Of a stretch of 12,000 nt of DNA, positions 1-12,000 are shown piece by piece; the stretch's first letter is position 1, and each line of letters begins with the position of its first letter. Made by a program: the position numbers and the translations under genes. The notes below the pieces were generated by a model that saw only the letters and a list, made by a program, of their open reading frames with translations, ran no database searches and was not told the origin of the DNA. This stretch comes from an uncultured Eubacteriales bacterium (GTDB taxonomy: Bacteria; Bacillota; Clostridia; Oscillospirales; Acutalibacteraceae), in contig ONXZ01000020.1 of assembly GCA_900321905.1 (NCBI GenBank), positions 1 to 12,000 on the forward strand, in the 5' to 3' direction.

Positions 1-13
1 TTGGTCGTCCCAT
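1..13 (-). CDS. 5' end of a minus-strand gene (Met-Gly-Arg-Pro...)
   Basis: Only the first codons are inside the window. On the minus strand a purine-rich ribosome binding site (AAAAAGGAG, 23-31) lies 9 nt before an ATG at 11-13, and the frame then reads Met-Gly-Arg-Pro. An earlier in-frame ATG at 20-22 directly abuts the ribosome binding site and is too close to be used. Many small ribbon-helix-helix DNA-binding proteins of Clostridia begin Met-Gly-Arg-Pro, but four residues cannot settle the family. The strong ribosome binding site, an upstream promoter and a dyad in the leader make a real gene likely. Confidence 0.4.
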
Positions 14-45
14 TCTTTTCATCTCCTTTTTCTCTATCTTACCAC

Positions 46-84
46 AAAAAATGATGGTAGACACTTTTTTGTGTCTACCATCAT
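46..84 (-). terminator. Perfect 14-bp dyad with T-rich tail: terminator of the minus-strand operon and/or operator
   Basis: ATGATGGTAGACAC (51-64) and its exact reverse complement (71-84) flank a six-T loop. On the minus strand the stem is followed directly by a run of T (46-51), as in a rho-independent terminator, and there is no T run on the plus-strand side. It lies downstream of the carboxypeptidase gene and its repeat, so it probably ends the five-gene minus-strand operon. The same dyad overlaps the -10 and start region of the next gene's promoter, so an operator role is also possible. The stem is only moderately GC-rich. Confidence 0.6.
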
Positions 85-111
85 TATATCATTTCACCAT
101 CTGGCTGTCGT
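83..111 (-). promoter_or_regulatory. Probable sigma-A promoter with extended -10, minus strand
   Basis: Reading the minus strand, ACGACA (106-111; four of six matches to TTGACA) is followed after exactly 17 bp by a perfect TATAAT (83-88) preceded by TGA, an extended -10. Transcription would start near 76, inside the 51-84 dyad, and lead into the gene starting at 13. This is inferred from sequence only. Confidence 0.45.
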
Positions 112-117
112 TTTTTT

Positions 118-316
118 AGTTAGCAGTATGCAGTTAGCCGTAAGCAGTTGGAGGTTGGTCGCTGCGCTCCGATTATATTTCGGGACGCCGGGGTCGTCGT
201 CCCCTACAAATATACGTTTCTGCGAGCAACTGTAGGGGCTGACGACCTCGGCAGCCCGCTAATTGTTCGAGGCGGAGCCGAGTAACCAACAACGGCATAC
301 TGCTAACTGCATACTA
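118..316. repeat. Modular inverted-repeat element A (AGTTAGC/AGTATGC heptad arms)
   Basis: The outer arms are 7-bp units: AGTTAGC-AGTATGC-AGTTAGC from 118 and, inverted, AGTATGC-AGTTAGC-AGTATGC ending at 315. Next inward are GGTTGGTCGCTGCGCTCC (153-170) and its diverged inverse ending at 286. The core is a 28-bp inverted repeat (181-208 against 231-258, 23 of 28 matching). The 231-257 half is identical over 27 bp, in inverse orientation, to 5221-5247 in element C. There is no coding capacity, so this looks like a nonautonomous MITE-like or extragenic palindromic repeat. The right edge forms the stop codon of the carboxypeptidase gene (TAG at 314-316, of which AG belongs to the first heptad). 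Confidence 0.8.
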
Positions 317-1468
317 ATACTTTGTATTGCCATATTTATCTATGTACTGATAGAGTTTTTTCATATCGTCCCAGCGCAGGTTGCTGCTCTTTGCACCAAG
401 CACCGTGACAACATACGTTTTGCCCCTATGCTCATACACACCGCTGAAACAAGAGCCTGCGCCCGAGGTGTAGCCTGTTTTGCCGCCCTTGTGCTTTATG
501 GAATAATCCTTGAGCATATCTGTTGTGTAGACAGTGCGGCTCTCCTTTTTCTTAACCGATTTAAAGGAGTATTTACGCGTATTAATAACGTTGCGGAACG
601 TGCCGTTTGTCGAGTAGATGTTGCCCATAATCAGCGACATATCATAAGCCGATGAGTAATGTCCTTTTGTATCAAGACCGTGCGGCGTTACAAATTGCGT
701 GTCTTTGAGTCCGAGTTGCTTTGCTTTGGCGTTCATCTCTTTTGCAAACTTCGGCACGGAGCCGCTCACGCCCTGTGCAATCGCCGTTGCCGCGTCGTTT
801 GAGGACGCGAGCATAAGCGCATACAGCAGCGATTTGTTTGTGTAAACGTCGCCCGGTTTCATACTCAGTATGCCGTAAGGCGTGTTTGCCGCGCTTTTTG
901 TAATCTTAGTGGAGTCGTTGAGCATACCCTTTTCAAGAAGTATGGTCGCAGTCATAATCTTTGTGGTGCTTGCCTGTTTGCGGCGTGTGCGGCTGTTTTT
1001 GGCGTAGACAACCGCCTTATCCTCAACGCACCATATGCAGGCGCTTGCGGATTTAATCTTTTTATTAACAATGTTAATCGTGGTCAGCGTGATGTTTTTA
1101 ACCGTTTTTTCGGCGTGCTTGTTGCCGTCAACCACTATGCGCCACTTGCCTGTGCGGCGGCGACGGTTTTCCTTAGGGAAAGTTATTTTGACGGTTGATG
1201 AATTCGTGTCTTTTGTTTTGTAGACTTTGATAGTTCTGTACTTTTTTGTTTTGCTGCTGTACATCTGCAGGCGCACCGTCCTGCCGCCCGTTGACGGAGT
1301 AATCGTGACATCTTTGCTCAGCGGTTTCTGATAAGTTGCTGTTATCTTTGCGCCGACGCCTGATACTGCCGTTTTGTCTTTTGAAATTTCCATTGCAAAC
1401 AAGTTCTGCCCTGTGAAGAAGGAGAACATTACAACAAAAATCATCACTTTACTAACCGTTTTTTTCAT
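314..1468 (-). CDS. Secreted D-alanyl-D-alanine carboxypeptidase (peptidase family S11)
   Basis: A penicillin-binding-protein-type serine peptidase of 384 residues that removes the terminal D-Ala from peptidoglycan stem peptides outside the membrane. All three family motifs are present: SxxK as Ser167-Thr-Thr-Lys170, SxN as Ser222-Ser-Asn224, and Lys330-Thr-Gly332. A signal peptide covers about residues 1-25. Residues 26-135 are an unassigned, probably beta-rich, Lys/Thr-rich region ahead of the catalytic domain (about 136-384). The C-terminal domain found after the catalytic domain in DacA/PBP5 is absent, so membrane attachment is not evident. The start is supported by AAAAGGA 9 nt upstream, inside the preceding gene. 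That gene's stop lies 2 bp before the ATG, so translation is probably coupled. The stop codon merges into repeat A. Family assignment is firm; the physiological role (growth or sporulation) cannot be told. Confidence 0.93.
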   Translation of the reverse strand: MKKTVSKVMIFVVMFSFFTGQNLFAMEISKDKTAVSGVGAKITATYQKPLSKDVTITPSTGGRTVRLQMYSSKTKKYRTIKVYKTKDTNSSTVKITFPKENRRRRTGKWRIVVDGNKHAEKTVKNITLTTINIVNKKIKSASACIWCVEDKAVVYAKNSRTRRKQASTTKIMTATILLEKGMLNDSTKITKSAANTPYGILSMKPGDVYTNKSLLYALMLASSNDAATAIAQGVSGSVPKFAKEMNAKAKQLGLKDTQFVTPHGLDTKGHYSSAYDMSLIMGNIYSTNGTFRNVINTRKYSFKSVKKKESRTVYTTDMLKDYSIKHKGGKTGYTSGAGSCFSGVYEHRGKTYVVTVLGAKSSNLRWDDMKKLYQYIDKYGNTKY

Positions 1469-1470
1469 AC

Positions 1471-2616
1471 CTAAAAGTCCTTTTCAGTTAACTGTCTGGT
1501 TTTTGTTTCGGTGGTGTCTGTGTAGATTTGCGGGTACCAATTTGAAGCAAGGCGGTACGGATTTTGCTGCTTATGCTCGTCGTACCACGCCTGCGTGTGC
1601 CTTATGCGTTTGTTTGCCTTTGTCTTTGTTATCTTTTCAAAATCACGTTTTCTCTCAATGCGTTTGCACAGCAGAACAAAACGTGAATCCGGCTGTTTTT
1701 CAGTAGGCATATTTACCGACAGATAGTAGCCTTCGTAGTCAAGTTTTGCGCCTGTGATGTAGAGCGAGCGAGTGTTTACGCGGTCGATGTACGACTTAAA
1801 ACTGCGCTCTGTGAGGTTGCCCCACGCATTATACGGGAACACATAGCCGTTGTCGTTTTTTGCATTGGTGTTTGCGTAGTATGCCGCAACGACCTGATAT
1901 TCCTCATCGTCAAACAGCGTTTTGAACACAACGTGCTGGCTTGACGATTTGTATGCCTTTGCTGTGCAGTAATACTGCTCAAGCGCGCTGCTGTAAAGCG
2001 CTACCGAGCGCAGGTGCTGCTCCTCAAGCACAGTTGAGCCGAGTTCTATAACGCCCAAATCTTTTTTTGACTTGCCGCCGACAGGTATCTCCTTGCCGTT
2101 GTCGTCAAAAATCAGCGTGCCTGCAGTCCTTTGGTCTTTGCCGTAGGCGTCGCAAAACTCCTTGCGTATGCCCTCGGGGTAGTCAATGCCGTACTTCTCA
2201 ACATACGGTTTGAGGTAGGCGACTTTTGAGTAGTCGTAAAGTTTTATTCCGCCAAAAACTACGCCTGCAATAACTGCAACAGCAAGCACGGCAATGCCGA
2301 GCCGCTTTGTGAACACCTTGCCCAGCGCGGATTTGACCGCAGGTAAAAGGCGTGTTTTTACGTTTGCCCTGATAATTGCGCCGCTCGGTTTAAGGGGCTT
2401 TTTCTTTTTAACTTTTTGCTTTTTAACTCGCGGTTTTTCCTCCTCTTTGGGCGGCTCAACCGGTACGGTTTCCTCGCGCGGTTTGGGCGGCTCAACCGGC
2501 GCAAAGGCGTCGCTTGGCTCAGGCTCTGATTCAACGTTTTCAGCCGTCTTGCCTTGCTGTTCCCTCACGCGCCTGAGGATTTCCTCAAGTTCGTCAAAAT
2601 CAAAATTGTCAGACAT
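1471..2616 (-). CDS. Single-pass membrane protein with a sortase-B-like extracellular domain lacking catalytic Cys and His
   Basis: A 381-residue protein. Residues 1-80 are cytoplasmic: an acidic N-terminus, a Pro/Glu-rich stretch (30-62) and a basic stretch (63-76). One membrane helix lies at about 106-123 and the remainder should be outside. Residues 133-320 resemble class B sortases in order: Tyr-Gly-Ile-Asp-Tyr-Pro (142-147), the Arg-Thr-Ala-Gly-Thr-Leu strand (163-168), the Phe-Lys-Ser-Tyr-Ile-Asp helix followed by Thr-Arg-Ser-Leu-Tyr-x-Thr-Gly (282-289), and the end strand Ser-Arg-Phe-Val-Leu (311-315). The catalytic Cys of the TLSTC motif aligns with Asn302, and the active-site His region aligns with Tyr208-Ser-Ser210; only Arg312 remains. 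The likely role is structural, binding or regulatory rather than transpeptidation. The start has AGGA 7 nt upstream. It is coupled to the downstream carboxypeptidase gene. The homology call rests on motif recall, not a search. Confidence 0.7.
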   Translation of the reverse strand: MSDNFDFDELEEILRRVREQQGKTAENVESEPEPSDAFAPVEPPKPREETVPVEPPKEEEKPRVKKQKVKKKKPLKPSGAIIRANVKTRLLPAVKSALGKVFTKRLGIAVLAVAVIAGVVFGGIKLYDYSKVAYLKPYVEKYGIDYPEGIRKEFCDAYGKDQRTAGTLIFDDNGKEIPVGGKSKKDLGVIELGSTVLEEQHLRSVALYSSALEQYYCTAKAYKSSSQHVVFKTLFDDEEYQVVAAYYANTNAKNDNGYVFPYNAWGNLTERSFKSYIDRVNTRSLYITGAKLDYEGYYLSVNMPTEKQPDSRFVLLCKRIERKRDFEKITKTKANKRIRHTQAWYDEHKQQNPYRLASNWYPQIYTDTTETKTRQLTEKDF

Positions 2617-2630
2617 TTATTGTTCCTACC

Positions 2631-2812
2631 AGTTGAGAGTTGAGAATTGAGAGTTGAGAATTAATGGCGGCACAGCCGCACCAGATTATAAAATAGGTGT
2701 GGACGAAGTCCCCTTGGAGCGGGCGCCTCACCCTTTTGTCACCTGCGGTGACATTTCCCCTCACAGGGGAATCACCCGAAATTCTCCACTCTCCATTCTC
2801 CATTCTCAATTA
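2631..2812. repeat. Modular inverted-repeat element B (AATTGAG heptad arms)
   Basis: This fills the gap between thiI and the sortase-like gene. The left arm (2631-2662) is made of AGTTGAG/AATTGAG units and the right arm (2779-2811) is their inverse in AATGGAG/AGTGGAG form. Inside are palindromes with a 3-nt centre: GCGGC-ACA-GCCGC (2667-2679), GGAC-GAA-GTCC (2701-2711), GTCACC-TGC-GGTGAC (2738-2752) and TTCCCCT-CAC-AGGGGAA (2755-2771). The 19-bp segment at 2693-2711 recurs in elements C (inverted) and E. The right edge supplies the last two bases of the thiI stop codon. Confidence 0.8.
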
Positions 2813-3979
2813 TTTTATAACTGTTCTTCTTGCGCCGTCGACTGCGCGGGCAATGAGCGCTTCGCTGTCGAGCGCGGCTTCCGCTTCGATTACAGAAGCG
2901 AGTTGCGGACGTGTTTTAGGGTGCTTTGGTGTGAACACCGTGCAGCAGTCCTCGTACGGAAGAATTGACGTGTCAAACGTGTCAATCTTGCGTGAAATGC
3001 GCACAATTTCGTCCTTATCCATACCGATACACGGACGAAAAACAGGCATTTCACACGCCGCGTCTGTGCAGCCGAGGGCATAGATTGTCTGGCTTGCGAC
3101 CTGACCCACGCTCTCGCCTGTGATGAGCGCAGAGCAGTTTTGGTGCTTTGCAATAATCTCGCTCACCTTCATCATATATCTTCTCATTATTATTGTAAAA
3201 TATTCCTCAGGGCAGTCCTTGCGAATCTGCTCCTGAATCTCGGTAAACGGCACAACGTAAGTTGTGACAGGACCGCTGTAACGTGCAACGCGGTGGAGAA
3301 GTTCCATAACCTTTTCTTCCGCGAGTTCAGTGGTGTAAGGCGGTGACGCAAAGTGAACGGCAACGAGTTCAATACCGCGTTTTGCCATCATATACGCCGC
3401 AACAGGCGAATCAATACCGCCGCTGATAAGCACAGCCGCCCTGCCGCTTGTGCTGACAGGCATACCGCCTGCGCCCCTGATGTTGTTGCCGCGAACAAAG
3501 GCATAGTTGTCGCGGATTTCAACAGTAACAGTTACTTCGGGATTATGCACGTCAACCTTGAGGTGGTTAAACTTTGAGAGCAGAAATCCGCCGAGTTCGC
3601 GAGCGATTTCAGGCGATTTGAGCGGGAATTTTTTATCGCTGCGCTTTGCTTCAACCTTAAAGGTCTTTGCAAGCGAGAGTTCATCCTCAAGATACTCTGC
3701 GCTGATTGATTTTATGCTGTCCATATCCTTGTCGGCAACTGCGGCACGCGACAGCGCGGCAATGCCGAAAACACGTTTAAGGCGCTCAACAGCGTCGTCG
3801 AGGTCGGTGTTTTTGTCAACAGGCTCAACCATAATAGTCGACTGGCTCTTTGTGAACGTGAACTCGCCGAGGTCGCGCAGTGACTTTTTCATATTCTTAA
3901 TGAGTATGTCCTCAAAGGTGTTGCGGTTAAGCCCTTTGAGTACCAACTCGCCGTTTTTGATTAATACTATTTCTTGCAT
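2810..3979 (-). CDS. thiI: tRNA 4-thiouridine synthase ThiI (tRNA sulfurtransferase), rhodanese-less form
   Basis: ThiI adenylates U8 of tRNA with ATP and replaces its oxygen with sulfur to give 4-thiouridine; in many bacteria it also serves thiamine thiazole synthesis. The 389 residues fit the short form: N-terminal ferredoxin-like and THUMP domains (about 1-165), then the adenylating domain with the PP-loop Ser186-Gly-Gly-Ile-Asp-Ser191 and the Thr-Gly-Glu-Ser-Val-Gly-Gln-Val-Ala-Ser-Gln segment (287-297). The C-terminal rhodanese domain of the E. coli protein is absent. Cys345-Cys346, in Pro-Tyr-Glu-Asp-Cys-Cys, probably include the counterpart of the first E. coli catalytic cysteine (Cys344). 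The start has TGGAG about 6 nt upstream. The gene lies 43 bp after a NifS-family desulfurase, the expected sulfur donor, as in the B. subtilis nifZ-thiI pair. The stop codon runs into repeat B. Confidence 0.96.
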   Translation of the reverse strand: MQEIVLIKNGELVLKGLNRNTFEDILIKNMKKSLRDLGEFTFTKSQSTIMVEPVDKNTDLDDAVERLKRVFGIAALSRAAVADKDMDSIKSISAEYLEDELSLAKTFKVEAKRSDKKFPLKSPEIARELGGFLLSKFNHLKVDVHNPEVTVTVEIRDNYAFVRGNNIRGAGGMPVSTSGRAAVLISGGIDSPVAAYMMAKRGIELVAVHFASPPYTTELAEEKVMELLHRVARYSGPVTTYVVPFTEIQEQIRKDCPEEYFTIIMRRYMMKVSEIIAKHQNCSALITGESVGQVASQTIYALGCTDAACEMPVFRPCIGMDKDEIVRISRKIDTFDTSILPYEDCCTVFTPKHPKTRPQLASVIEAEAALDSEALIARAVDGARRTVIK

Positions 3980-3999
3980 ATAAATCTCCAGACCTGTTC

Positions 4000-4024
4000 A
4001 GGCTTCCTTTACATAAGGGAGGCT
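4000..4024 (-). repeat. Short intercistronic inverted repeat between nifS and thiI
   Basis: Two 10-bp half-sites (4000-4009 and 4015-4024) around a 5-nt centre form an imperfect hairpin beginning inside the nifS stop codon (TAG at 4023-4025). On the minus-strand RNA it has two mismatches, so the fold is modest. It lies before the thiI ribosome binding site and has no T run, so it is not a convincing terminator. It may be a minimal member of the extragenic repeat population seen elsewhere in the window. Confidence 0.5.
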
Positions 4025-5150
4025 AAATGTGATAATTTTCTACCGTTTCTTTTATTGCGGTAACGAGCGCGTCAATATCTTCCTGCGTGGTGTGGCGCGA
4101 AAATGACACACGCACCGAGCGCTCAATAGTTTTGTCGGGCAGTTTCATCGCTGTGAGAACGTGACTCTTTTTGCCCTTGGCGCACGCCGAGCCGTTGCTG
4201 ATACAAATGCCGTACTTTGACGACAGGTGCTGCACAACTGTCTGGCTTGTCATAAAAACAGGCACATAAAAGTTGATAATATAGTCGCTCGCGCTGTCAG
4301 GAGAGTTGAGAGTTACGCCCTCAATTTCAAGCAGTTTTTGCCTTGCGTATGCGTTAATCTGCGCCATATGCTGTGCGATGCTGTCAAGGGAGCAGAGTTC
4401 ACACGCCTTGCCGAAGCCTGCAATCAGCGGAATTGCCTCCGTGCCGGGGCGAAGTTTCTTTTCCTGCTCGCCGCCAAACTGACGCGGCAGAATACGCGCG
4501 CCTTTTTTGACATAAAGTGCGCCGACGCCCTTTGCGCCGTGAATTTTGTGCGCTGTCACGCTGACTAAATCTGCGCCGAGTTTTGACGGGCGCACAGGGA
4601 TTTTGCCAAACGCCTGCACGCAGTCGATATGCACAAGCGCAGGTGCGCCTGCCTTTTGCACAGCCTTTTTGATAAACTCAACGGGCAGCACTGTGCCGAC
4701 CTCGTTGTTGACATACATCATCGTTACAAGGATTGTGTCGGCGTTGACCGCTTCGGCAATCTGCGCCTTTGAGATGTTGCCCTCTTTGTCAGGCATAAGT
4801 CGGATAACTTCAAAGCCCTGCTTTTCAAGTTCGTCAACCGTTTGCAGCACGCTCTCGTGCTCAATGGCGGTGGTGACAATGCGCTTGCCGCGGCGCCCCA
4901 GCGCAGCAGCAGCACCGAGGATTGCAAGGTTGTTGGCTTCCGTTCCGCCTGAGGTGAAGCAGATTTCCTCACTCTCACAGCCGAGCAGATTTGCAACGCT
5001 CTGACGTGCCTTACGCAACTTAGCGTTGGCGTCAAGACCTGCTTTGTGAAAACTTGATGGGTTGCCAAAGTTTGCCGTGAGCATATTATAAATTTCGTCT
5101 GCAACCGCCTTTTCGGGTATCGTGGTTGCACTGTTATCAAGATATATCAT
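4023..5150 (-). CDS. nifS: NifS-family cysteine desulfurase (sulfur donor for ThiI)
   Basis: A PLP enzyme converting L-cysteine to L-alanine and an enzyme-bound persulfide. The 375 residues show the family landmarks: Tyr-Leu-Asp-Asn-Ser-Ala-Thr-Thr at the N-terminus, Gly69-Thr-Glu-Ala-Asn-Asn74, His98 in the Glu-His-Glu-Ser cofactor-stacking motif, Asp176 and Gln179, the PLP lysine Lys202 in Ala-His-Lys-Ile-His-Gly, and the catalytic Cys323 in Ser-Ala-Cys-Ala-Lys-Gly. A longer reading from 5210 adds 20 residues that are a translation of repeat C, so the ATG at 5148-5150 is chosen; it has AGGA just upstream, though with short spacing. Position next to thiI suggests the dedicated NifZ role (4-thiouridine) rather than general Fe-S assembly. 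No iscU or sufU partner is visible here. Confidence 0.95.
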   Translation of the reverse strand: MIYLDNSATTIPEKAVADEIYNMLTANFGNPSSFHKAGLDANAKLRKARQSVANLLGCESEEICFTSGGTEANNLAILGAAAALGRRGKRIVTTAIEHESVLQTVDELEKQGFEVIRLMPDKEGNISKAQIAEAVNADTILVTMMYVNNEVGTVLPVEFIKKAVQKAGAPALVHIDCVQAFGKIPVRPSKLGADLVSVTAHKIHGAKGVGALYVKKGARILPRQFGGEQEKKLRPGTEAIPLIAGFGKACELCSLDSIAQHMAQINAYARQKLLEIEGVTLNSPDSASDYIINFYVPVFMTSQTVVQHLSSKYGICISNGSACAKGKKSHVLTAMKLPDKTIERSVRVSFSRHTTQEDIDALVTAIKETVENYHI

Positions 5151-5157
5151 AGTTCCT

Positions 5158-5358
5158 AATTGAGAATGTAGAATGGAGAATGGAGAATTTCGGGTGGACT
5201 TCGTCCACACCTATTATATTCGGGCTGCCGAGGTCGTCAGCCCCTACTACCCTGTTACAACAGACAATGTAGGGGGCGATGACCCCAGCGCCCCGTTATA
5301 ATCGGGTACGGGCAGAGCCCGTCATTAATTCTCAATTCTCAACTCTCAATTCTACATT
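5158..5358. repeat. Modular inverted-repeat element C (AATTGAG heptad arms)
   Basis: This occupies almost the whole gap between the HAD-NUDIX gene and nifS. The left arm (5158-5190) reads AATTGAG-AATGTAG-AATGGAG-AATGGAG. The right arm (5326-5358) is the inverse of AATGTAG-AATTGAG-AGTTGAG-AATTGAG. Inside are GTGGAC-TTC-GTCCAC (5194-5208), a diverged core inverted repeat (5221-5247 against 5269-5295), and ACGGGC-AGA-GCCCGT (5308-5322). The half at 5221-5247 matches 231-257 of element A over 27 bp in inverse orientation. The right edge contains the last codon and stop codon of the HAD-NUDIX gene. Confidence 0.82.
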
Positions 5359-6521
5359 AAAAGAGTTTTTAGTTTTAATGCTGCCGCTACTGTTTTTGCG
5401 TCCTTGATTTCGCCCGACATAACACGTTTTACGAGTTCGTCAAGCGGCATTTTTATCACCTGCAAAAATTCGTCGTCGTCGAGGTTCTGTTCCTCAAAGT
5501 GCAGTCCTGTCGCACCGTAAAGACGGATAATCTCGTTTGTATAACCGGGCGACGGATAAATTTCACCGAGTGAAAAGTAGTTATCCGCAACTGCGCCGCA
5601 TTCTTCCCTGAACTCGCGCACGCCTGCTTCAAACGGGTCCTCGTCCTTTTCGAGTTTGCCGGCAGGAATTTCAAAAATAATCTCTTTGTACGGATAGCGA
5701 AACTGCCTTACAAGCAGCACTTCGCCCTCGTCGGTAAGGCCGATAACCGCCACGCCGCCGGGGTGGTCAACGCACTCGCGCTTTGCCTGATTGCCGTTGC
5801 ACAGCGTGATATCATCATGATGAACGGTCAGCACTTTACCGCTGAAAATGCCGTTAACACGGTCGGTGTGCTCGTAAAGGTCAAGGGCAACCGCTTCAAC
5901 GTCCTGCGGTGCGTCAAGGATAAAATCAGCGCCGCTTTCGATAAGTTCAAACTTTGTGCCGTAACCCCAGGTTACGCCAATCGAGCGCAGTTCGTTTTCC
6001 TTTGCGCCGTCAATATCGTACTGCGTGTCGCCCACCATAATAATATCGGCAGGGGCTGTGCCGAGTTCTTTTGCACAGCGCGCGATAATGGACGGTTTCG
6101 GCTCGCAGTCAGCCTGAAAAGTCACGCCGCAAACGCAGTCAAACATATCGGCAATACCGAAATGGCTGAGCAGTTTTTCAATAAACAACTGCGGTTTTGA
6201 CGAGGCAATACCGAGTTTGAAACCGTCGTTTCTGAGCGACTTTAACAAATCGTGAATTCCGTCATAGAGGTGACTTTCAAAAAGTCCGATTTCGCTGTAA
6301 CGCTCGCGGAATTTTTTGACAAGTTCGTCCGCTTCCTGCGGAGTTTTGCCAAATTTTTCCTGAAAAGTTACAAGCAGCGGCGGGCCGATAAAATAACCGA
6401 GTTCGTCAACATCAGGCGTTTCAATACCAATGGAGTTAAGCGCAAACGCCGCGCTTTTTTTGATACCTTCGCCGGTGTCGCATACCGTTCCGTCAAAATC
6501 AAATATAATCGCTTTTGCCAT
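5352..6521 (-). CDS. HAD-family phosphatase fused to an ADP-ribose pyrophosphatase-type NUDIX hydrolase
   Basis: A 389-residue two-domain cytoplasmic enzyme. The N-terminal domain (about 1-212) is a HAD subfamily I phosphatase of the phosphoglycolate phosphatase/5'-nucleotidase type: Asp8-x-Asp10-Gly-Thr, a cap region with Ile-Gly-Pro-Pro-Leu (45-49), motif II Ser107, Lys142 in Lys-Pro-Ser, and motif IV Gly-Asp165-Thr-Gln-Tyr-Asp169. The C-terminal domain (about 220-389) is NudF-like, with a complete NUDIX box at 288-310 (Gly288, Glu294, Arg302-Glu303, Glu306-Glu307, Gly309) following Glu-Ile-Pro-Ala-Gly-Lys-Leu. NudF enzymes cut ADP-ribose to AMP and ribose 5-phosphate; the HAD half could then dephosphorylate a product, which is inference. 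The ATG at 6521 has AGGTGA 7 nt upstream. A TTG at 6539 lies ahead of that site and is rejected. It is first in the minus-strand operon. The C-terminal Met codon and stop lie inside repeat C. Confidence 0.9.
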   Translation of the reverse strand: MAKAIIFDFDGTVCDTGEGIKKSAAFALNSIGIETPDVDELGYFIGPPLLVTFQEKFGKTPQEADELVKKFRERYSEIGLFESHLYDGIHDLLKSLRNDGFKLGIASSKPQLFIEKLLSHFGIADMFDCVCGVTFQADCEPKPSIIARCAKELGTAPADIIMVGDTQYDIDGAKENELRSIGVTWGYGTKFELIESGADFILDAPQDVEAVALDLYEHTDRVNGIFSGKVLTVHHDDITLCNGNQAKRECVDHPGGVAVIGLTDEGEVLLVRQFRYPYKEIIFEIPAGKLEKDEDPFEAGVREFREECGAVADNYFSLGEIYPSPGYTNEIIRLYGATGLHFEEQNLDDDEFLQVIKMPLDELVKRVMSGEIKDAKTVAAALKLKTLLM

Positions 6522-6554
6522 AATCAAGTCACCTGCCAAAAATCATTGGCAAAT

Positions 6555-6583
6555 ATTATACCATAATTGTAATTAATTAGCAA
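6555..6583 (-). promoter_or_regulatory. Promoter for the HAD-NUDIX/nifS/thiI operon
   Basis: On the minus strand TTGCTA (6578-6583) is followed by a 17-bp spacer and a perfect TATAAT (6555-6560), preceded by TGG, an extended -10. Transcription would start near 6548, giving a leader of about 27 nt before the ATG at 6521. It is the best promoter match in the window and points into the five-gene operon. Confidence 0.7.
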
Positions 6584-6619
6584 GTTTATTAATTTATTAA
6601 GTAAATATATAAATAATTC

Positions 6620-6649
6620 TTTACATAAGTAATTATATTATGTTATTAT
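6620..6649 (+). promoter_or_regulatory. Probable promoter for coaX
   Basis: TTTACA (6620-6625) with TATTAT (6644-6649) at an 18-bp spacing, in a very AT-rich divergent intergenic region. Several other AT hexamers nearby could serve as the -10, so the exact boxes are uncertain. The leader before the coaX ATG would be about 30 nt. No riboswitch-like structure is evident. Confidence 0.4.
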
Positions 6650-6684
6650 ATAAGTTGAGATATTATTGTCACAGAGGTGATTAT

Positions 6685-7446
6685 ATGCTACTTGCTATTG
6701 ATGTTGGCAACACCAACATTGTGCTTGGCGTGCTTGACGGTGATAAAATAATGCACAAAGGCAGAATGCACACAAACGTTAACTCCACGACTGACGAATA
6801 CGCAATCAAACTCAAGGCGTTTCTTGAACTGCACGGCGTTCACGGTGAGATTGACGGCGCAATTATTGCAAGCGTTGTACCGCCGCTTGTAAGGCCGCTG
6901 AAAAAGGCGGTTAAACTCGTCACCGCTCAAAACGCGCTTGTTGTAGGACCGGGAGTAAAAACAGGACTTTCAATCAAGATTGACGACCCGTCGCAACTCG
7001 GCGCTGATATGGTTGTGGGCGCGGTTGCGGCAAAGGAGAAGTACCCCTGCCCTATCATTATGTTTGACCTCGGCACAGCGACGACAGGCTCTGTGATTGA
7101 CAAAAACGGCGACTTCATCGGTGCGGTGATTACCGCAGGCGTTAAGACATCTTTGAACGCCCTTGCAAGCGGCACGGCGCTGCTGCCGCTGATTGAGATT
7201 TCCGCACCCAAAAGGGTAATCGGCACCAACTCAATCGACAGTATGCGCTCAGGCGCGGTGGTCGGCACGGCGGCGATGATTGACGGCTTTATTGACAGAT
7301 TTGAGGAAGAACTCGGCGAAAAGGCGACTGTCATTATTACAGGCGGACTCGGCACGCAGGTTATCAAAAACTGCAGGCACGACATTGTGCTGAGCCAAAA
7401 CCTCTTGCTTGACGGACTGAAAATCATTTATGATAAAAATAATTGA
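6685..7446 (+). CDS. coaX: Type III pantothenate kinase
   Basis: Catalyses the ATP-dependent phosphorylation of pantothenate, the first step of coenzyme A synthesis; a cytoplasmic ASKHA-fold dimer. The 253 residues show Asp6-Val-Gly-Asn-Thr-Asn near the N-terminus (phosphate loop), Gly106-Ala-Asp108 (catalytic Asp), Asp128-Leu-Gly-Thr-Ala-Thr (second phosphate/monovalent cation site), and Ser186-Met-Arg-Ser-Gly near the substrate cap. The residue after Asp108 is Met, where many CoaX proteins have Arg. The ATG at 6685 follows AGAGGTGA (6673-6680) and starts directly with the conserved motif; a start at 6640 would add 15 residues with no family support. The last Asn codon and TGA stop lie inside the first 7-bp unit of repeat D. 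The next gene on the same strand is 96 bp away with no clear terminator between. Confidence 0.95.
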   Translation: MLLAIDVGNTNIVLGVLDGDKIMHKGRMHTNVNSTTDEYAIKLKAFLELHGVHGEIDGAIIASVVPPLVRPLKKAVKLVTAQNALVVGPGVKTGLSIKIDDPSQLGADMVVGAVAAKEKYPCPIIMFDLGTATTGSVIDKNGDFIGAVITAGVKTSLNALASGTALLPLIEISAPKRVIGTNSIDSMRSGAVVGTAAMIDGFIDRFEEELGEKATVIITGGLGTQVIKNCRHDIVLSQNLLLDGLKIIYDKNN

Positions 7447-7528
7447 GAATTGAGAGTTGAGAATTGAGAATTTTTGTTTCTCGGCTACGCCTCAATCAAA
7501 TAATCAGGGTCGGCAACCTTGGCGACCC
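7441..7528 (+). repeat. One-armed heptad repeat element D between coaX and the glycoside hydrolase gene
   Basis: Four tandem 7-bp units (AATTGAG, AATTGAG, AGTTGAG, AATTGAG; 7441-7468) begin in the coaX stop region, followed by a T-rich stretch, GGC-TAC-GCC (7483-7491) and a hairpin at 7507-7528. There is no matching inverted arm, unlike elements A to C, so this may be a decayed or shortened copy. The T-rich stretch at 7471-7478 has no stable GC-rich stem directly before it, so termination is doubtful. Confidence 0.7.
7507..7528 (+). promoter_or_regulatory. Leader hairpin immediately upstream of the ribosome binding site
   Basis: GGGTCG (7507-7512) pairs with CGACCC (7523-7528), with a further partial pairing inside (CAA/TTG). 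The stem ends two bases before AGGAG (7531-7535). It could influence ribosome access or mRNA stability, or simply be the core module of repeat D, whose GTCG/CGAC pattern resembles the cores of elements A and C. Confidence 0.35.
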
Positions 7529-7542
7529 GCAGGAGTAAAATT

Positions 7543-10500
7543 ATGAAAAAAACATTATCACTACTATTAAGCGTTATACTTGCGCTGACGGCGCTGATGA
7601 GTGCAGGCGTTACCGCGCTTGCTGACGGTTCGGGCAACTGCGGCACTGACGGAGCAAACGTAACGTGGACGCTTACAGGCGGCACGCTCACAATCAACAA
7701 AGGCTCGTCGGGCGAAGCGCGTATGGCGGACTTCGTCAACAACGGCGCGGCGCGTCCCGGCTGGTACGACAGCCGCACGTCAATCACAAAAATCGTGATT
7801 GAGGAGGGCGTTGTTAACGTTGGCTCGTATGCGTTTGACGGCTGCTCAAACGTCACATCTGTTGACTTTGGAACGATTGACACAATCGGCAACAACGCGT
7901 TTATGAACTGCACCTCGCTCACGCAGGTCAACCTGCCGAGTTCGTTCAACTGGATGTACACGTCTGTTTTTGAAGGCTGTACTGCGCTCAAAGTTGCGTA
8001 CCTCGGCGAGCGCTGGTGGACAGACAGTGCTGTGCCTGACTACTTTTTTAAAGGCTGTACTTCCCTGCGCCTTGTAAGGCTGGGCAGCAAGTTCACAGGC
8101 TTCGGCACAGGCACGTTTGAGGGTTGCTCTGCGCTCAAAGTTATTATTTCGGACAACTCAAACATCTCATATGACGGCATAACCGTTGTGCCGACAAGTA
8201 TTATGAGCGGCGAGTGCTCCGACAACACATATTCGAGCAGTAAACTCACATACAACTACGATATGTGGAATTTTGCGCTCACTTTCAGCGGCTCGGGCGA
8301 TATGAGCAGCACGCCTTGGGCAGACCTCAAAACTGCGGTTGACAGCGTTTCGTTTGCAAAAACTGACGCTAAAACGTCAATCTCCACCTCTGCTTTTGCA
8401 GGTTACGCAAATCTTGCAAGCGCTGATTTTACCAACATCTACGCAGTCGGCTGGGGCGCTTTCGGCGATGACGCAAAACTCGGCAACATTCAGTTTGACG
8501 ATGAACTGACTGACATCTGGGACTATGCGTTCTCCAACTGTACGTCCATTGAAACGGTACAGTTCGGTAACGGCAGCGGCGATTTGCATATCAGATACCA
8601 CGCTTTCCAAAACTGCACAAGTACCACATACTGGCTCAACATTCCGGCAAACGCCAAGTACATTGACGAGGGCGCTTTCTGGAACACTAACTTTAACTAT
8701 GTTCACATTTACTCGCCCGACGTTGTTATCGGCGACGACGCCTTCGGCAACGGCGAGGGCGGCTACGCGCGCTTTTTCAGCCTTGACGGCACGCACACGA
8801 CGACCTACGATTTTGTTGAAAATCATAAGAAAAACAAATCTTACAACTGGCACTACTTCTGCAACAGCGAGCACAATTACGCAACTGTAACCGTTGCGCC
8901 AACCTGCACCGAGCAGGGCTACGACCGCTACGGCTGCATTTACTGCGAGGCAGACGAATACAAATCAAACTTTGTTGACCCGCTCGGCCACGACTACGAA
9001 TGTACAGGCACCGAGGACGGCAACTATACATACGAGTGCAGACGCTGCGGCGGCACGGACTACAAGTTGTCCGCCTTTGAGCCTATGCACTACTTCCAAA
9101 AGGCGCTGTCTACCTACGATATTGACAACGCATACAATCAGCCGAACTACGACAGCCGCGTTGACGTGAACGCCGACGGATTTATCAACGGACGTGACTG
9201 GGCGATTATCACCCATAACATCAACAATATCGACACAACCGGCAAGGCTACAACAATCGACACATCAACGACTTATCAGGAGATTGAAGGCTTCGGCGCG
9301 TCCGGTGCATGGTGGTCGCCCGAGGTCGGAGCCTGGGAAAACACTAAAGATATCGTCCGTCTGCTCTACTCTAAAAACGGCGGTATCGGTCTTAACATCT
9401 ACCGCTACAACCTCGGCGCCGGCTCGCTTAACGACAGCCAACTTTACAACACCGGCACAAGGACGGACTGTTTTCTTAAATCTGACGGTACATATGATTG
9501 GACTGCCGACGCAGGCGCAAGGAATACGCTTAAATGGGCAAACACCTTCTGCCCTAACGTTAAGGTTGAGTTGTTCTCAAACTCCGCACCTGCTTTTATG
9601 ACTAACAACGGCAAGGCTTACGGCAACCCTGTTGCTGAGGGCGAGGACGTTACCTGCAACCTGCCGAGCAGCAACTTTGCGGCGTTTGCAGACTACGTTG
9701 TTAAGAGCGCGGAACACTTTATTGACGAGGGTTACAACGTTACCGAGGTATCGCCAATCAACGAGCCTGAATGGGGATGGACAGGCTGGTACAACGGCGA
9801 CGGCAGTATCTCCTGCGGTCAGGAAGGCTGCCACTTTGAACCTAACGACGCACGCGATTTTTACAACAACGCTATGGTGCCTGCGCTTGAAGCGAGCAGC
9901 AAACTCAACGGCACAGACCGCGACAAAGTTGAACTCGCGGTATGGGAGTGCGCACAACTCAACCACGGCTGGTGGTGGAGCAGATTCCTTGACGCTAACT
10001 TCTCCGCAACCGTTAAGCAGACTGTAATCGGAAGTATCACGCGTGAGGTTGCAAACGAAAACACACGCGCTATCCGCCGCTATGTCGACACGCTTGACAC
10101 CCACTCTTACTGGGCGGCGGCAAGCGACAGACAGCAGATTATGTCCGACATCAGCGCAACGAAATACAGCACAATCAAAAAGATAAAATGCTCTGAATAC
10201 TGCCAGATGTACAACGACGGCAACTCGGGCGTTGTAGGTCACACACAGGCGGCAGGCGGCTCGTCAAACGGTATGGGCATTGACTACGGTCTTGCAATGG
10301 CAGACATTATTTATCAGGATATGACTATCCTCAACGCAGTTGAGTGGGATTGGTGGACAGCGTGCGGCAAGGGCGTTTACACCGACAGCCTTGTTTACAT
10401 CGACTCAAACGACCACTCAAATATTCAGACGGCTAAAAGACTCTGGTGCCTCGGCAACTACTCAAAGTTTATTCAGGAAGGCGCAAAGCGAATCAAGGTT

Positions 10501-11766
10501 ACAACAGGCTCACAGTTCGGCGCAAATCTGTACACAAAGCCTGAAAATATCTACACCTGGAAAGACGGCGACAACACCGGCACCGATAAATACAACTATC
10601 TTGAAGAATCGGCTTACCTCAACCCCGACGGCTCAGTTGCGATTGTTTACATCAACAATTCCGATACAATTGAGTACACCTCGCTCAGGGACAACGGCTA
10701 CAGCCACTTCAAGACCTACGTAACAGACGACACCAAAAACCTTGAACTCTATCAGAGCGGCAGCACTGATAAACCGGTATGTATCCCCGCCCGCTCATGC
10801 ACAACAGTTGTGCTTAAAAACAACGCGCAGCCTGCCGAGTCAAAGAAGGACGCTTATCTGTTTGCTTACTTCACGGGCAACGCTGTGTCACAGCAGAGAG
10901 TTCACCTCGCTGTGTCAAAAGACGGTTACAGTTTTACTCCGCTGAACGGCAACAAAGAGGTTATCACTCAGACAAAGGGTACTCTGAACTGCCGCGACCC
11001 GTATGTTTTCAAGGGTCAGGACGGCTACTACTATATGATTGCAACCGATATGGACTGCAACACAGGCTGGTGGGGCAACAGTCAGACAATGGTTATATGG
11101 CGTTCAACCGACCTTGTTAACTGGACTGACGAAACTATAATTAATATGAGTGAGATTACAGGCGCAGACGACATTAAGCGCTGCTGGGCGCCGCAGGTTA
11201 TCTGGGACGAAAAAGAGCAAAAGTATATGGTTTACTTTGCGCTCGCGTCGGGGAGTATCACACAAAATCACACCGTTATGTACTACTGCTACACCGACGA
11301 TTTGCTCGACCAGAGCAAGTACACATATCCGCAACTGCTCTACAAACCCGAACTCGGTGACGACAAGGAGAATAACGCCATTGACGGCGATATTATCTAC
11401 GACAAGGCAAACGACCTTTACTACCTTTACTACAAGGACGAGGACAACGCCACTATCTGCTATGTAACGGGCAAGAACGTGAACGGTCCTTACAGCGACC
11501 CTGCAAATCCGCAGAAGGTGCTGTCAAGCGACGTTGCGCTTGAGGGCTGCAACTGCTACTACATCAACGGCACAGACACGCTCGTTATGCTTGCAGACGC
11601 TTATCTTGACGGTTACTTTGTGCTTAACACCACAAAGGACTATAAAAACTTCACCACGCTTGACAACAGTGAAACCACTATCAACGAATGTCAGCCGCGC
11701 CACGGTAGCGTTATCACAATATCCGACGCGCAGTACGACAGACTTGTCAGCGAATACGGTATTTAA
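7543..11766 (+). CDS. Secreted multidomain glycoside hydrolase: BspA-type LRR, Cys-rich segment, dockerin-like loop, GH30, GH43
   Basis: A 1407-residue exported protein. A signal peptide covers 1-27 (Ala-Leu-Ala before Asp28). About 11 LRR_5 (BspA-type) units lie in two blocks (95-204 and 283-413) with the pattern Ala-Phe-x-x-Cys-Thr-Ser-Leu. A Cys-rich segment spans 440-502. A single dockerin-like F-hand lies at about 516-563, with Asp541-x-Asn543-x-Asp545-Gly-x-Ile-Asn549-x-x-Asp552. The GH30-like barrel and beta domain (about 565-1092) start at Glu-Ile-Glu-Gly-Phe-Gly-Ala-Ser; the likely acid/base is Glu741 in Ile-Asn-Glu-Pro-Glu and the nucleophile Glu885 in Cys-Ser-Glu-Tyr. The GH43-like propeller (about 1103-1390) has likely base Asp1152 (Arg-Asp-Pro-Tyr), pKa modulator Asp1281 and acid Glu1334 (Leu-Glu-Gly). 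No sortase signal, SLH or C-terminal dockerin is seen. The ATG at 7543 follows AGGAG by 7 nt; an upstream TTG at 7519 is rejected. An arabinose- or galactose-containing glycan is plausible as substrate but unproven. Confidence 0.88.
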   Translation: MKKTLSLLLSVILALTALMSAGVTALADGSGNCGTDGANVTWTLTGGTLTINKGSSGEARMADFVNNGAARPGWYDSRTSITKIVIEEGVVNVGSYAFDGCSNVTSVDFGTIDTIGNNAFMNCTSLTQVNLPSSFNWMYTSVFEGCTALKVAYLGERWWTDSAVPDYFFKGCTSLRLVRLGSKFTGFGTGTFEGCSALKVIISDNSNISYDGITVVPTSIMSGECSDNTYSSSKLTYNYDMWNFALTFSGSGDMSSTPWADLKTAVDSVSFAKTDAKTSISTSAFAGYANLASADFTNIYAVGWGAFGDDAKLGNIQFDDELTDIWDYAFSNCTSIETVQFGNGSGDLHIRYHAFQNCTSTTYWLNIPANAKYIDEGAFWNTNFNYVHIYSPDVVIGDDAFGNGEGGYARFFSLDGTHTTTYDFVENHKKNKSYNWHYFCNSEHNYATVTVAPTCTEQGYDRYGCIYCEADEYKSNFVDPLGHDYECTGTEDGNYTYECRRCGGTDYKLSAFEPMHYFQKALSTYDIDNAYNQPNYDSRVDVNADGFINGRDWAIITHNINNIDTTGKATTIDTSTTYQEIEGFGASGAWWSPEVGAWENTKDIVRLLYSKNGGIGLNIYRYNLGAGSLNDSQLYNTGTRTDCFLKSDGTYDWTADAGARNTLKWANTFCPNVKVELFSNSAPAFMTNNGKAYGNPVAEGEDVTCNLPSSNFAAFADYVVKSAEHFIDEGYNVTEVSPINEPEWGWTGWYNGDGSISCGQEGCHFEPNDARDFYNNAMVPALEASSKLNGTDRDKVELAVWECAQLNHGWWWSRFLDANFSATVKQTVIGSITREVANENTRAIRRYVDTLDTHSYWAAASDRQQIMSDISATKYSTIKKIKCSEYCQMYNDGNSGVVGHTQAAGGSSNGMGIDYGLAMADIIYQDMTILNAVEWDWWTACGKGVYTDSLVYIDSNDHSNIQTAKRLWCLGNYSKFIQEGAKRIKVTTGSQFGANLYTKPENIYTWKDGDNTGTDKYNYLEESAYLNPDGSVAIVYINNSDTIEYTSLRDNGYSHFKTYVTDDTKNLELYQSGSTDKPVCIPARSCTTVVLKNNAQPAESKKDAYLFAYFTGNAVSQQRVHLAVSKDGYSFTPLNGNKEVITQTKGTLNCRDPYVFKGQDGYYYMIATDMDCNTGWWGNSQTMVIWRSTDLVNWTDETIINMSEITGADDIKRCWAPQVIWDEKEQKYMVYFALASGSITQNHTVMYYCYTDDLLDQSKYTYPQLLYKPELGDDKENNAIDGDIIYDKANDLYYLYYKDEDNATICYVTGKNVNGPYSDPANPQKVLSSDVALEGCNCYYINGTDTLVMLADAYLDGYFVLNTTKDYKNFTTLDNSETTINECQPRHGSVITISDAQYDRLVSEYGI

Positions 11767-12000
11767 TTCAGTTAGCAGTATGCAGTTAGCAGTTGAAGGT
11801 TGGTCGCTACGCTCCAATCAGACTCAAGGAATTCGCTACGCTCATAAGGAACGTGCTTCGCACGAAAGGCTCAAGGTGTTGGGTGCTGCGCACAGCAATT
11901 TATAATAGGTGTGGACGAAGTCCACCTTCCCCCTTGAGTCTTGAGTCTATTCCCTTGAGTCTAATCCGAGCGAAGCGAGTTACCTTAATTCATCATTCAC
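11767..12000. repeat. Modular repeat element E, cut by the window end
   Basis: No gene is visible in this stretch. It begins 3 nt after the stop codon with AGTTAGC-AGTATGC-AGTTAGC units (11770-11790). A 32-bp inverted repeat (11798-11829 against 11953-11984, about 25 matches) encloses CGTGC-TTC-GCACG (11852-11864), GTGC-TGC-GCAC (11883-11893), GTGGAC-GAA-GTCCAC (11911-11925) and a third heptad family, TTGAGTC (11934-11962). The 19-bp segment at 11905-11923 is shared with elements B and C. The end (11986-12000) looks like the start of another 7-bp-unit arm. No terminator is seen after the hydrolase gene. Confidence 0.75.

Follow-up and report, generated by a model that had tools for sequence, protein, structure and literature searches.

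Heptad repeats at gene ends in an uncultured Acutalibacteraceae bacterium are probably arms of small insertion elements related to IVP elements

We analysed a window of 12,000 nt from an uncultured Eubacteriales bacterium of the family Acutalibacteraceae (contig ONXZ01000020.1 of assembly GCA_900321905.1, positions 1 to 12,000), in which arrays of 7-bp units (heptads) lie at the ends of genes. These repeats are probably the arms of small insertion elements (E1 to E5, Table 1), gene-less relatives of elements that carry an IVP gene, in the family of the 23S rRNA intervening sequences (IVS). They are termed IVP-less relatives and not members because no IVP gene was found among the window proteins. 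IVP genes and heptad arrays co-occur and, at the level of sequence, IVP-bearing and IVP-less copies clearly share their arms and inner modules. A preliminary description of the window had proposed that insertion targets stop codons, or that the repeats act as 3′ untranslated region (3′-UTR) modules which supply the stop themselves. An explanation by ordinary stop-codon 'modules' is not the preferred one, and both ideas, insertion at stops and elements restoring them, hold in part.

A full-length IVP element measures approximately 410-580 bp and carries one gene (PF05635, IVP/S23p). It consists of a tandem array of short units (mostly 7 bp), hairpin modules, the IVP gene, more modules and an inverted array. 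Relatives of the protein with solved structures are 2gsc (XCC0516) and 2rld; to our knowledge, no catalytic activity has been assigned to it. An open reading frame of this four-helix-bundle family was found in one element of the relative G058. PF05635 was present in all five genomes examined first, in 33 of 60 genomes of the genus (79 matches; 32 over the cut-off), in 61 of 299 genomes of the phylum (52 over the cut-off) and in 30 plasmid records. The assembly containing the window has two IVP genes, one with AGTTAGC arms like those of E1 and E5; their products matched PF05635 with 133 and 101.7 bits (cut-off 33.8) and also TIGR02436. For further analysis, 39 IVP loci were derived from the 79 genus matches and 29 from the phylum matches, together with 10 plasmid loci.

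Period-7 arrays within 250 nt flanked the IVP gene on both sides at 12 of the 39 genus loci and on either side at 23, compared with 13 and 18 of the 29 phylum loci. Among controls, arrays on both sides were observed for 1 of 179 ordinary genes in the own genome, 9 of 272 in G058 and none of 42 other genes of the IVP loci. Inverse flanks (score of at least 14) occurred at 41 of 77 IVP loci, a set omitting L254 (flank too short), and at 7 of 1,079 ordinary genes. Permutation of the flanks among IVP loci was rejected as a null model: its 99th percentile was exceeded by 14 of 38 loci from the genus, 15 of 29 from the phylum and 4 of 10 from plasmids, and because words are shared in the genus and plasmid sets this null is heavy, so ordinary genes were used as the control. 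The flanks of IVP genes matched IVP-less elements of the own genome and of G058 in arms and inner modules (best E 1e-20). In addition, 23S rRNA hosts IVP copies with arms of the same kind in G150, G152 and G206, three genomes from other genera (Rfam; L341, L318, L326/L339). Both arms were present in 12 IVP elements, nine of which have a codirectional upstream gene with its stop at a distance of -2, -2, 2, 11, 13, 27, 48, 58 and 58 nt.

The association was also evident between genomes. Among the 60 genus genomes, at least five matches to a heptad pattern were found in 13 of the 33 with IVP and in none of the 27 without (Spearman 0.69), with totals of 484 and 2 matches, respectively. When a second pattern was added, the numbers were 14 of 33 and 1 of 27. 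A reversed-pattern control gave no clean zero in the heptad-rich G058 (27 and 27 matches versus 39 and 41 for the pattern) and exceeded the pattern in G052 (44 and 31 versus 31 and 22). Other heptad words presumably match the reversed control, and for this reason the comparison was made across genomes. A census of ThiI neighbourhoods in 29 genomes, which comprised too little DNA, revealed arrays in 6 of 24 genomes with IVP and 0 of 5 without.

Tandem periods were scanned in samples of the own genome (G000, a draft of 1.76 Mb in 274 contigs) and in stretches of three relatives, G058 (371 kb), G007 (396 kb) and G048 (400 kb), with genes called by a codon-usage script. For the own sample 40 contigs were drawn, of which 13 were dropped for N (12 wholly N) and 27 were readable, yielding 250 kb including the window. 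Period 7 stood out, at a frequency above chance: such arrays in noncoding and coding DNA numbered 14 and 0 in the own genome, 50 and 1 in G058, 38 and 1 in G007, and 0 and 0 in the IVP-less G048, where two gaps contained an array at a looser threshold. Periods of 4-6 and 8-13 gave 0-1 arrays in the own genome and single counts of 0-8 over all samples, the larger ones being coding; period 14, the double unit, tracked period 7 (10 arrays in the own genome). Heptad words vary inside one genome (AATTGAG, AGTTAGC, AATTCGG, CAGTTTT, AGTGTTA, GGCTCAA, TGTACAG and others). Within an element, one arm matches the other in inverse orientation, and the same inner modules are combined with different arms.

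Within the window, degenerate arms of 7-bp units contain or lie within 3 nt of five of the six stop codons named in the preliminary description (314, 2810, 5352, 7444 and 11764). At the sixth, 4023-4025, the tandem scan detected no period-7 array touching 3960-4045, and the 43-nt gap contains no more than a small hairpin, with no other copy in the own and G058 samples. As this stop has no array, repeats are found at the stops of five of the seven complete genes and not at six as first counted. At the five stops the preliminary reading was confirmed: TAG at 314-316 is T plus the AG of an AGTATGC unit, and three stops fall in AATTGAG-type units, namely TAG at 5352-5354 (inside AATGTAG), TGA at 7444-7446 (inside AATTGAG) and, with its last two bases, TAA at 2810-2812 (T plus the AA of AATTGAG). 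The TAA at 11764-11766 is followed by 2 nt and then by CAGTTAGC. That the repeats reach nearly to the next ribosome binding site (RBS) is correct for both elements upstream of a window gene; the distance to the start codon is 14 nt for the element at 2631 and 7-12 nt, depending on the threshold, for the one at 5158-5163.

The window copies measure 180-200 bp or are single arms. E1, at the stop of the D-alanyl-D-alanine carboxypeptidase gene, is degenerate; it was missed by the period-7 scan and detected by an inverted-repeat search (arms 125-161/279-315, 81%) and by TRF (118-149, period 14). Part of its core, 232-258, recurs exactly in E3 in inverse orientation (5221-5247). The ends of E1 to E3 are complementary with a predicted stem, which E4 lacks; no second arm of E4 was seen in 7473-7530. 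E5 has CTTGAGT units at 11933-11967 and is incomplete, continuing beyond the window end. RNA folding gave z scores of -9.4 (E1), -4.8 (E2) and -8.2 (E3), predicting long hairpins, and -2.6 for 7441-7540 (E4). Two matches in an Rfam scan of the window were both below the gathering score and were disregarded, and no match to E3 was found in phage records. Hairpins of the form CTTCCCC...GGGGAAG with GTGACGGATGAGG-type sequence make up a second intergenic repeat family in congeners (L142, L143, NifS-ThiI gap); a relative of this family seems, by eye, to be nested in the E2 core (2700-2780).

Table 1. Genes and repeat elements of the window.
Feature	Position	Strand	Description
E1	117..316	.	Two-arm element, AGTATGC/AGTTAGC arms, GC-rich palindromic core
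D-alanyl-D-alanine carboxypeptidase (Peptidase_S11)	314..1468	-	PF00768
E2	2631..2813	.	Two-arm element, AATTGAG/AATGGAG arms 2631-2664 and 2781-2813, overlaps thiI stop 2810-2812
ThiI	2810..3979	-	PF02568
Stop gap of presumed cysteine desulfurase	3980..4022	.	Short imperfect hairpin, no heptad array
Class V aminotransferase	4023..5150	-	PF00266
E3	5158..5359	.	Two-arm element, arms 5158-5192 and 5322-5358, overlaps HAD-Nudix stop 5352-5354
HAD hydrolase-Nudix fusion	5352..6521	-	PF13419, PF00293
Type III pantothenate kinase (CoaX)	6685..7446	+	PF03309
E4, single heptad arm	7439..7472	+	AATTGAG x 4.6, contains coaX stop TGA 7444-7446
E4, remnant core	7473..7530	+	GGGTCGGCAACCTTGGCGACCC hairpin
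Large BspA-type leucine-rich repeat and GH30 protein	7543..11766	+	PF13306, PF14587, PF17189
E5, element(s)	11769..12000	.	CAGTTAG arm 2 nt past stop 11764-11766, then hairpin modules

The seven window genes, including the aminotransferase that we take to be of the cysteine desulfurase type, are syntenic in the closest congeners, in which ThiI identity reaches 92-93%; among named genomes the closest ThiI proteins are those of an Oscillospiraceae metagenome-assembled genome (92%) and of Eubacterium coprostanoligenes ATCC 51222 (82%). Downstream of the HAD-Nudix gene, the gap is -14 to 18 nt and without heptads in 16 of 18 relatives; the remaining two (G058 and G006) have arrays with other heptads. 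The gap after coaX measures 3-39 nt in 11 of 13 relatives, is 145 nt with another element in G058, and in one relative no further match followed. For ThiI the gap is 9-23 nt in five of the six relatives whose next match starts at residue 1-2. G058 and G006 contain elements in some of the window's gaps with other words (CAGTTTT, AGTTTTA, AATTCGG, ACCTAAA). CoaX ends with AAG before the stop in 6 of 13 relatives and with AAT-TGA, read from AATTGAG, in the window. Relatives keep the same stops without the repeat, an outcome that the preliminary description had named as speaking against its proposal. A target-site duplication was not visible around the window elements, as the intergenic flanks are too diverged from those of the relatives.

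Filled and empty sites could be compared in cyanobacterial plasmids. Empty sites were sought for five of the 10 plasmid IVP loci (L330, L332, L334, L335 and L338), and a sixth site surfaced alongside; L329, L331, L333, L336 and L337 lay outside this search. In all six comparisons, the IVP insertion is located at the stop codon of the upstream gene. Trichormus variabilis (T. variabilis) plasmid C, compared with N. linckia and N. carneum, carries a 428-bp insert with GTAAT on both sides; the empty form reads AAAAAGTAATTAAC, and the stop TAA lies inside this clean 5-bp duplication. A 442-bp insert in Nostoc ATCC 53789 pNsp_a and C052 pC052_D, absent from C052 pC052_B, is situated at a TAG stop with TTCTA on both sides, the left stop now reading TTC-TAA. 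At another junction of the same operon, ATCC 53789 pNsp_c differs from pC052_B by 506 bp at TAATG, with ATG repeated. The insert of N. edaphicum, compared with Calothrix NIES-4105, is directly beside the alpha-subunit stop; in C052 pC052_D versus C057, TAA was changed to TAG via the element's G; and in Picosynechococcus 7003 versus 7002 the stop TGA is in the arm. The element's first base completes the stop in two of the six. At the pC052_D/C057 site, ATCC 53789 pNsp_c contains approximately 210 extra bases of short repeats, in which no IVP gene is annotated (L353, 777-1038), and this gap at the stop of the TraM gene is possibly an IVP-less copy.

The T. variabilis site is also filled in Scytonema, by 414 bp, i.e. 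with 14 bp or two heptads fewer (L335 versus L348), which gives a direct view of unit-number change. Such variation, together with words that differ between species, is what plain slippage repeats arising in place beside gene ends would produce. We regard this origin as most improbable: the arms form inverted pairs that enclose shared cores, one and the same core is found with different arms, IVP genes sit between arms and whole units of 414-506 bp are present or absent. For two-arm copies, slippage would not be viable unless the cores were unrelated.

The position of the repeats relative to stop codons was determined for the gaps that separate called genes in the samples of the own genome, G058 and G007. 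Of 636 codirectional gaps, 63 contained an array (0.93 per noncoding kb), as did 14 of 86 convergent gaps (1.27 per kb) and 6 of 81 divergent ones (0.26 per kb). In the 63 codirectional gaps with an array, 31 had it no more than 3 nt from the stop and 3 no more than 3 nt from the start, and the predicted peak at 0-3 nt from stops does exist. Random spacing, which had been named as evidence to the contrary, was seen in part, as arrays occur in the divergent gaps and, in 10 of 63 gaps, more than 30 nt from both gene ends.

Such a peak could, however, be a matter of constraint only, with insertion anywhere and the copies at stops being survivors in short gaps with a protected RBS. Two-arm elements start within 3 nt of the stop in 17 of 26 cases, where uniform placement predicts 5.4. 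If 8, 12, 15, 18 or 22 nt before the start are kept, 9.7, 12.1, 12.8, 13.6 and 15.1 are expected at the stop (P = 0.0002, 0.002, 0.008, 0.025 and 0.14). Array-free codirectional gaps have a median of 20 nt, and relatives show the same stops followed by short or negative gaps. As 12.1-15.1 of 26 are expected when 12-22 nt are kept, short gaps and a protected RBS account for most of the stop peak. On the other hand, the excess persists with 12-18 nt protected, the residual gaps are short (median 27.5 nt), similar to empty gaps taken per gap (43.5 nt for positive ones) and unlike a draw per base (236 nt), and even where the gap measures 40 and 52 nt, as in two of the filled/empty comparisons, the insert is at the stop. 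Selection on promoters could explain part of the short residual gaps and stop-side inserts. Taken together, constraint as the sole cause has a little less than an even chance; a residue of stop targeting beyond it is likely, and not proven by the gap data. Insertion at stops, as initially suggested, is directly supported by the six cyanobacterial comparisons, and in the genus most of the peak is explained by constraint.

Stop-codon bases were inside the array in 17 of the 63 codirectional gaps (all three in 9 and two in 8, never one; none in 46). TAG accounted for 8 of these 17 overlapped stops compared with 115 of 839 genes (P = 0.001), an excess expected if the element adds AG after T. Nevertheless, the heptad words show no enrichment of stop codons (stop-side arrays: 14 of 25 versus 18.0 expected after letter shuffling). 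For this reason the idea that heptads are built to supply stops was rejected as a design of the units, and the suggestion that the elements provide the stop stands for single cases. The same word test argues against useful 3′-UTR modules kept for stop supply, translation insulation or mRNA-end protection, as do their absence after the HAD-Nudix gene in 16 of 18 relatives and the elements in divergent gaps. The strong predicted hairpins, the stops partly or fully in arrays and the presence of elements with other heptads in some of the corresponding gaps of G058 and G006 would be compatible with such a role, which we consider unlikely.

How the elements might move has one further candidate answer, in which IVP acts like Avd, the accessory protein of diversity-generating retroelements, and a reverse transcriptase is provided in trans. 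The match of IVP to Avd models is weak and in each case below the cut-off (29.9 and 26.0 bits versus 80; 24.8 and 30.5 versus 40), and homology of 2GSC and 4DWL, which also fits this idea, has been published (PMC10053308). RVT_1 was present in 16 of the 60 genomes of the genus, and no reverse transcriptase was detected in the IVP-bearing G000, G058, G007 and G034, which are incomplete drafts and in which a very diverged enzyme could escape. The lack of RVT_1 in these four genomes weakens retro-mobility, and it appears quite unlikely.

Several known systems resemble the window elements. In one report on IVS with S23p (PMC4990558), tandem GACAGAT units are described upstream of the S23p start, and mobility is said to have been proposed earlier. 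Like the full-length kin of the window copies, IVS, whose RNA is excised by RNase III, contain a PF05635 gene, and their inverted stem-forming ends and heptamers beside the gene are similar to the window copies and their kin. Unlike IVS, the window copies are located between protein genes, are gene-less and occur with many relatives in each genome. In Xanthomonas and Nostoc (PMC4692102), heptameric repeats are also 7-bp units between aligned genes, near or overlapping stops, and in Xanthomonas they often form inverted pairs; that paper treats them as G-quadruplex repeats which as a rule have no association with mobile elements. Another intergenic heptamer, TAACTGA, is repeated in Beggiatoaceae, Cyanobacteria and Bacteroidetes (PMC4679880); some copies overlap the end of the upstream gene, but in the main genome they are direct repeats of one word that lie mostly just upstream of starts. 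The terms 'S23' and 'helix bundle' are absent from the main text of the former and the text of the latter article. No paper that links heptad repeats and IVP genes as parts of one mobile family was found in the open literature, subscription papers being mostly outside this search.

Miniature inverted-repeat transposable elements are likewise short, gene-less and of high copy number with inverted ends, and E1 to E3 have terminal inverted repeats. They differ in that the kin of the window elements encode IVP and no known transposase, and in that the ends are tandem arrays of a variable word. At the both-armed loci that were examined, the arms enclose the IVP gene and no transposase-encoding parent was seen; a distant parent may exist. 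Repetitive extragenic palindromes and bacterial interspersed mosaic elements with their RAYT transposases are also extragenic hairpins in many copies, but are not known to have arms of 7-bp units.

A number of observations weigh against a relationship of the window repeats to IVP elements as a mobile family. At IVP loci, 20 of 42 neighbouring genes have an array on one side, 36 of 77 loci remain below the inverse-flank score, and the control genes of that comparison were drawn from the genus only. By eye, hairpin arrays replace the plain arms in a second IVP type, and L242, L249 and L257 are without clear arms; in Pseudanabaena L336 both arrays have the same direction. Of the nine both-armed genus IVP elements with a codirectional upstream gene, three lie within 3 nt of its stop, the other six being 11-58 nt away. 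IVP genomes without heptad matches exist (e.g. G013 with five IVP matches and none to the pattern), G012 has eight matches to the second pattern and no IVP match, and since the genomes are related the correlation is over non-independent points. The six comparisons stem from cyanobacterial plasmids and not from this genus; only one is clean at the base level, one shows ATG only, and in 7003/7002 the rewritten end of the upstream gene blurs the join. Finally, no movement was observed.

The second IVP type, as judged by eye, is preceded by linkers of approximately 7 bp and small hairpins (L224, L227, L228, L231, L248, L250-L254, L258), and arm units of 8 or 11 bp seem to be present in L325, L328, L302 and L306. 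In cyanobacterial plasmids, IVP genes occur inside cas operons (L329, L336, L338), twice as cas6-IVP-cas4 and once as cas10-IVP-cmr3, and they can therefore be mistaken for CRISPR-associated genes. The domain legend of a CRISPR survey includes '23S rRNA IVP' (PMC10910872).

If the window repeats are arms of IVP-related elements, these elements would move as units and insert at short TA-rich targets with a staggered cut of about 5 bp. Gene 3′ ends in operons may be the preferred tolerated site because the stop is restored and the following gene keeps an intact RBS. Restoration would be achieved by the duplicated target or by the element's first bases (A-A, A-G or G after T/TA). IVP might bind the hairpin or the arms and help some host or trans-acting nuclease or recombinase, and the mobilisation of IVP-less copies would rely on IVP acting in trans. 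In the mRNA, the hairpin may keep the insert harmless, as the IVS stem does in rRNA, while unit number and words would drift by slippage and concerted change.

More broadly, and tentatively, since we hold it somewhat less probable than the contrary, the heptad repeats of several bacterial groups, hitherto described as simple repeats without an explanation, may be the arms and remains of a single, widespread class of transposable elements, with the four-helix-bundle IVP as sole gene and no recognised transposase, whose targets are 23S rRNA and the stops of operon genes, the stop being rebuilt upon insertion. If this is true, IVP/S23p proteins, described without known function, would gain a setting for a function test, and heptamer repeats near or over stops in several groups would be explained. 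IVP genes in cas, conjugation or ribonucleotide reductase operons may then be passengers, and a gene-poor element would follow a simple insertion rule: land on a stop and restore it.

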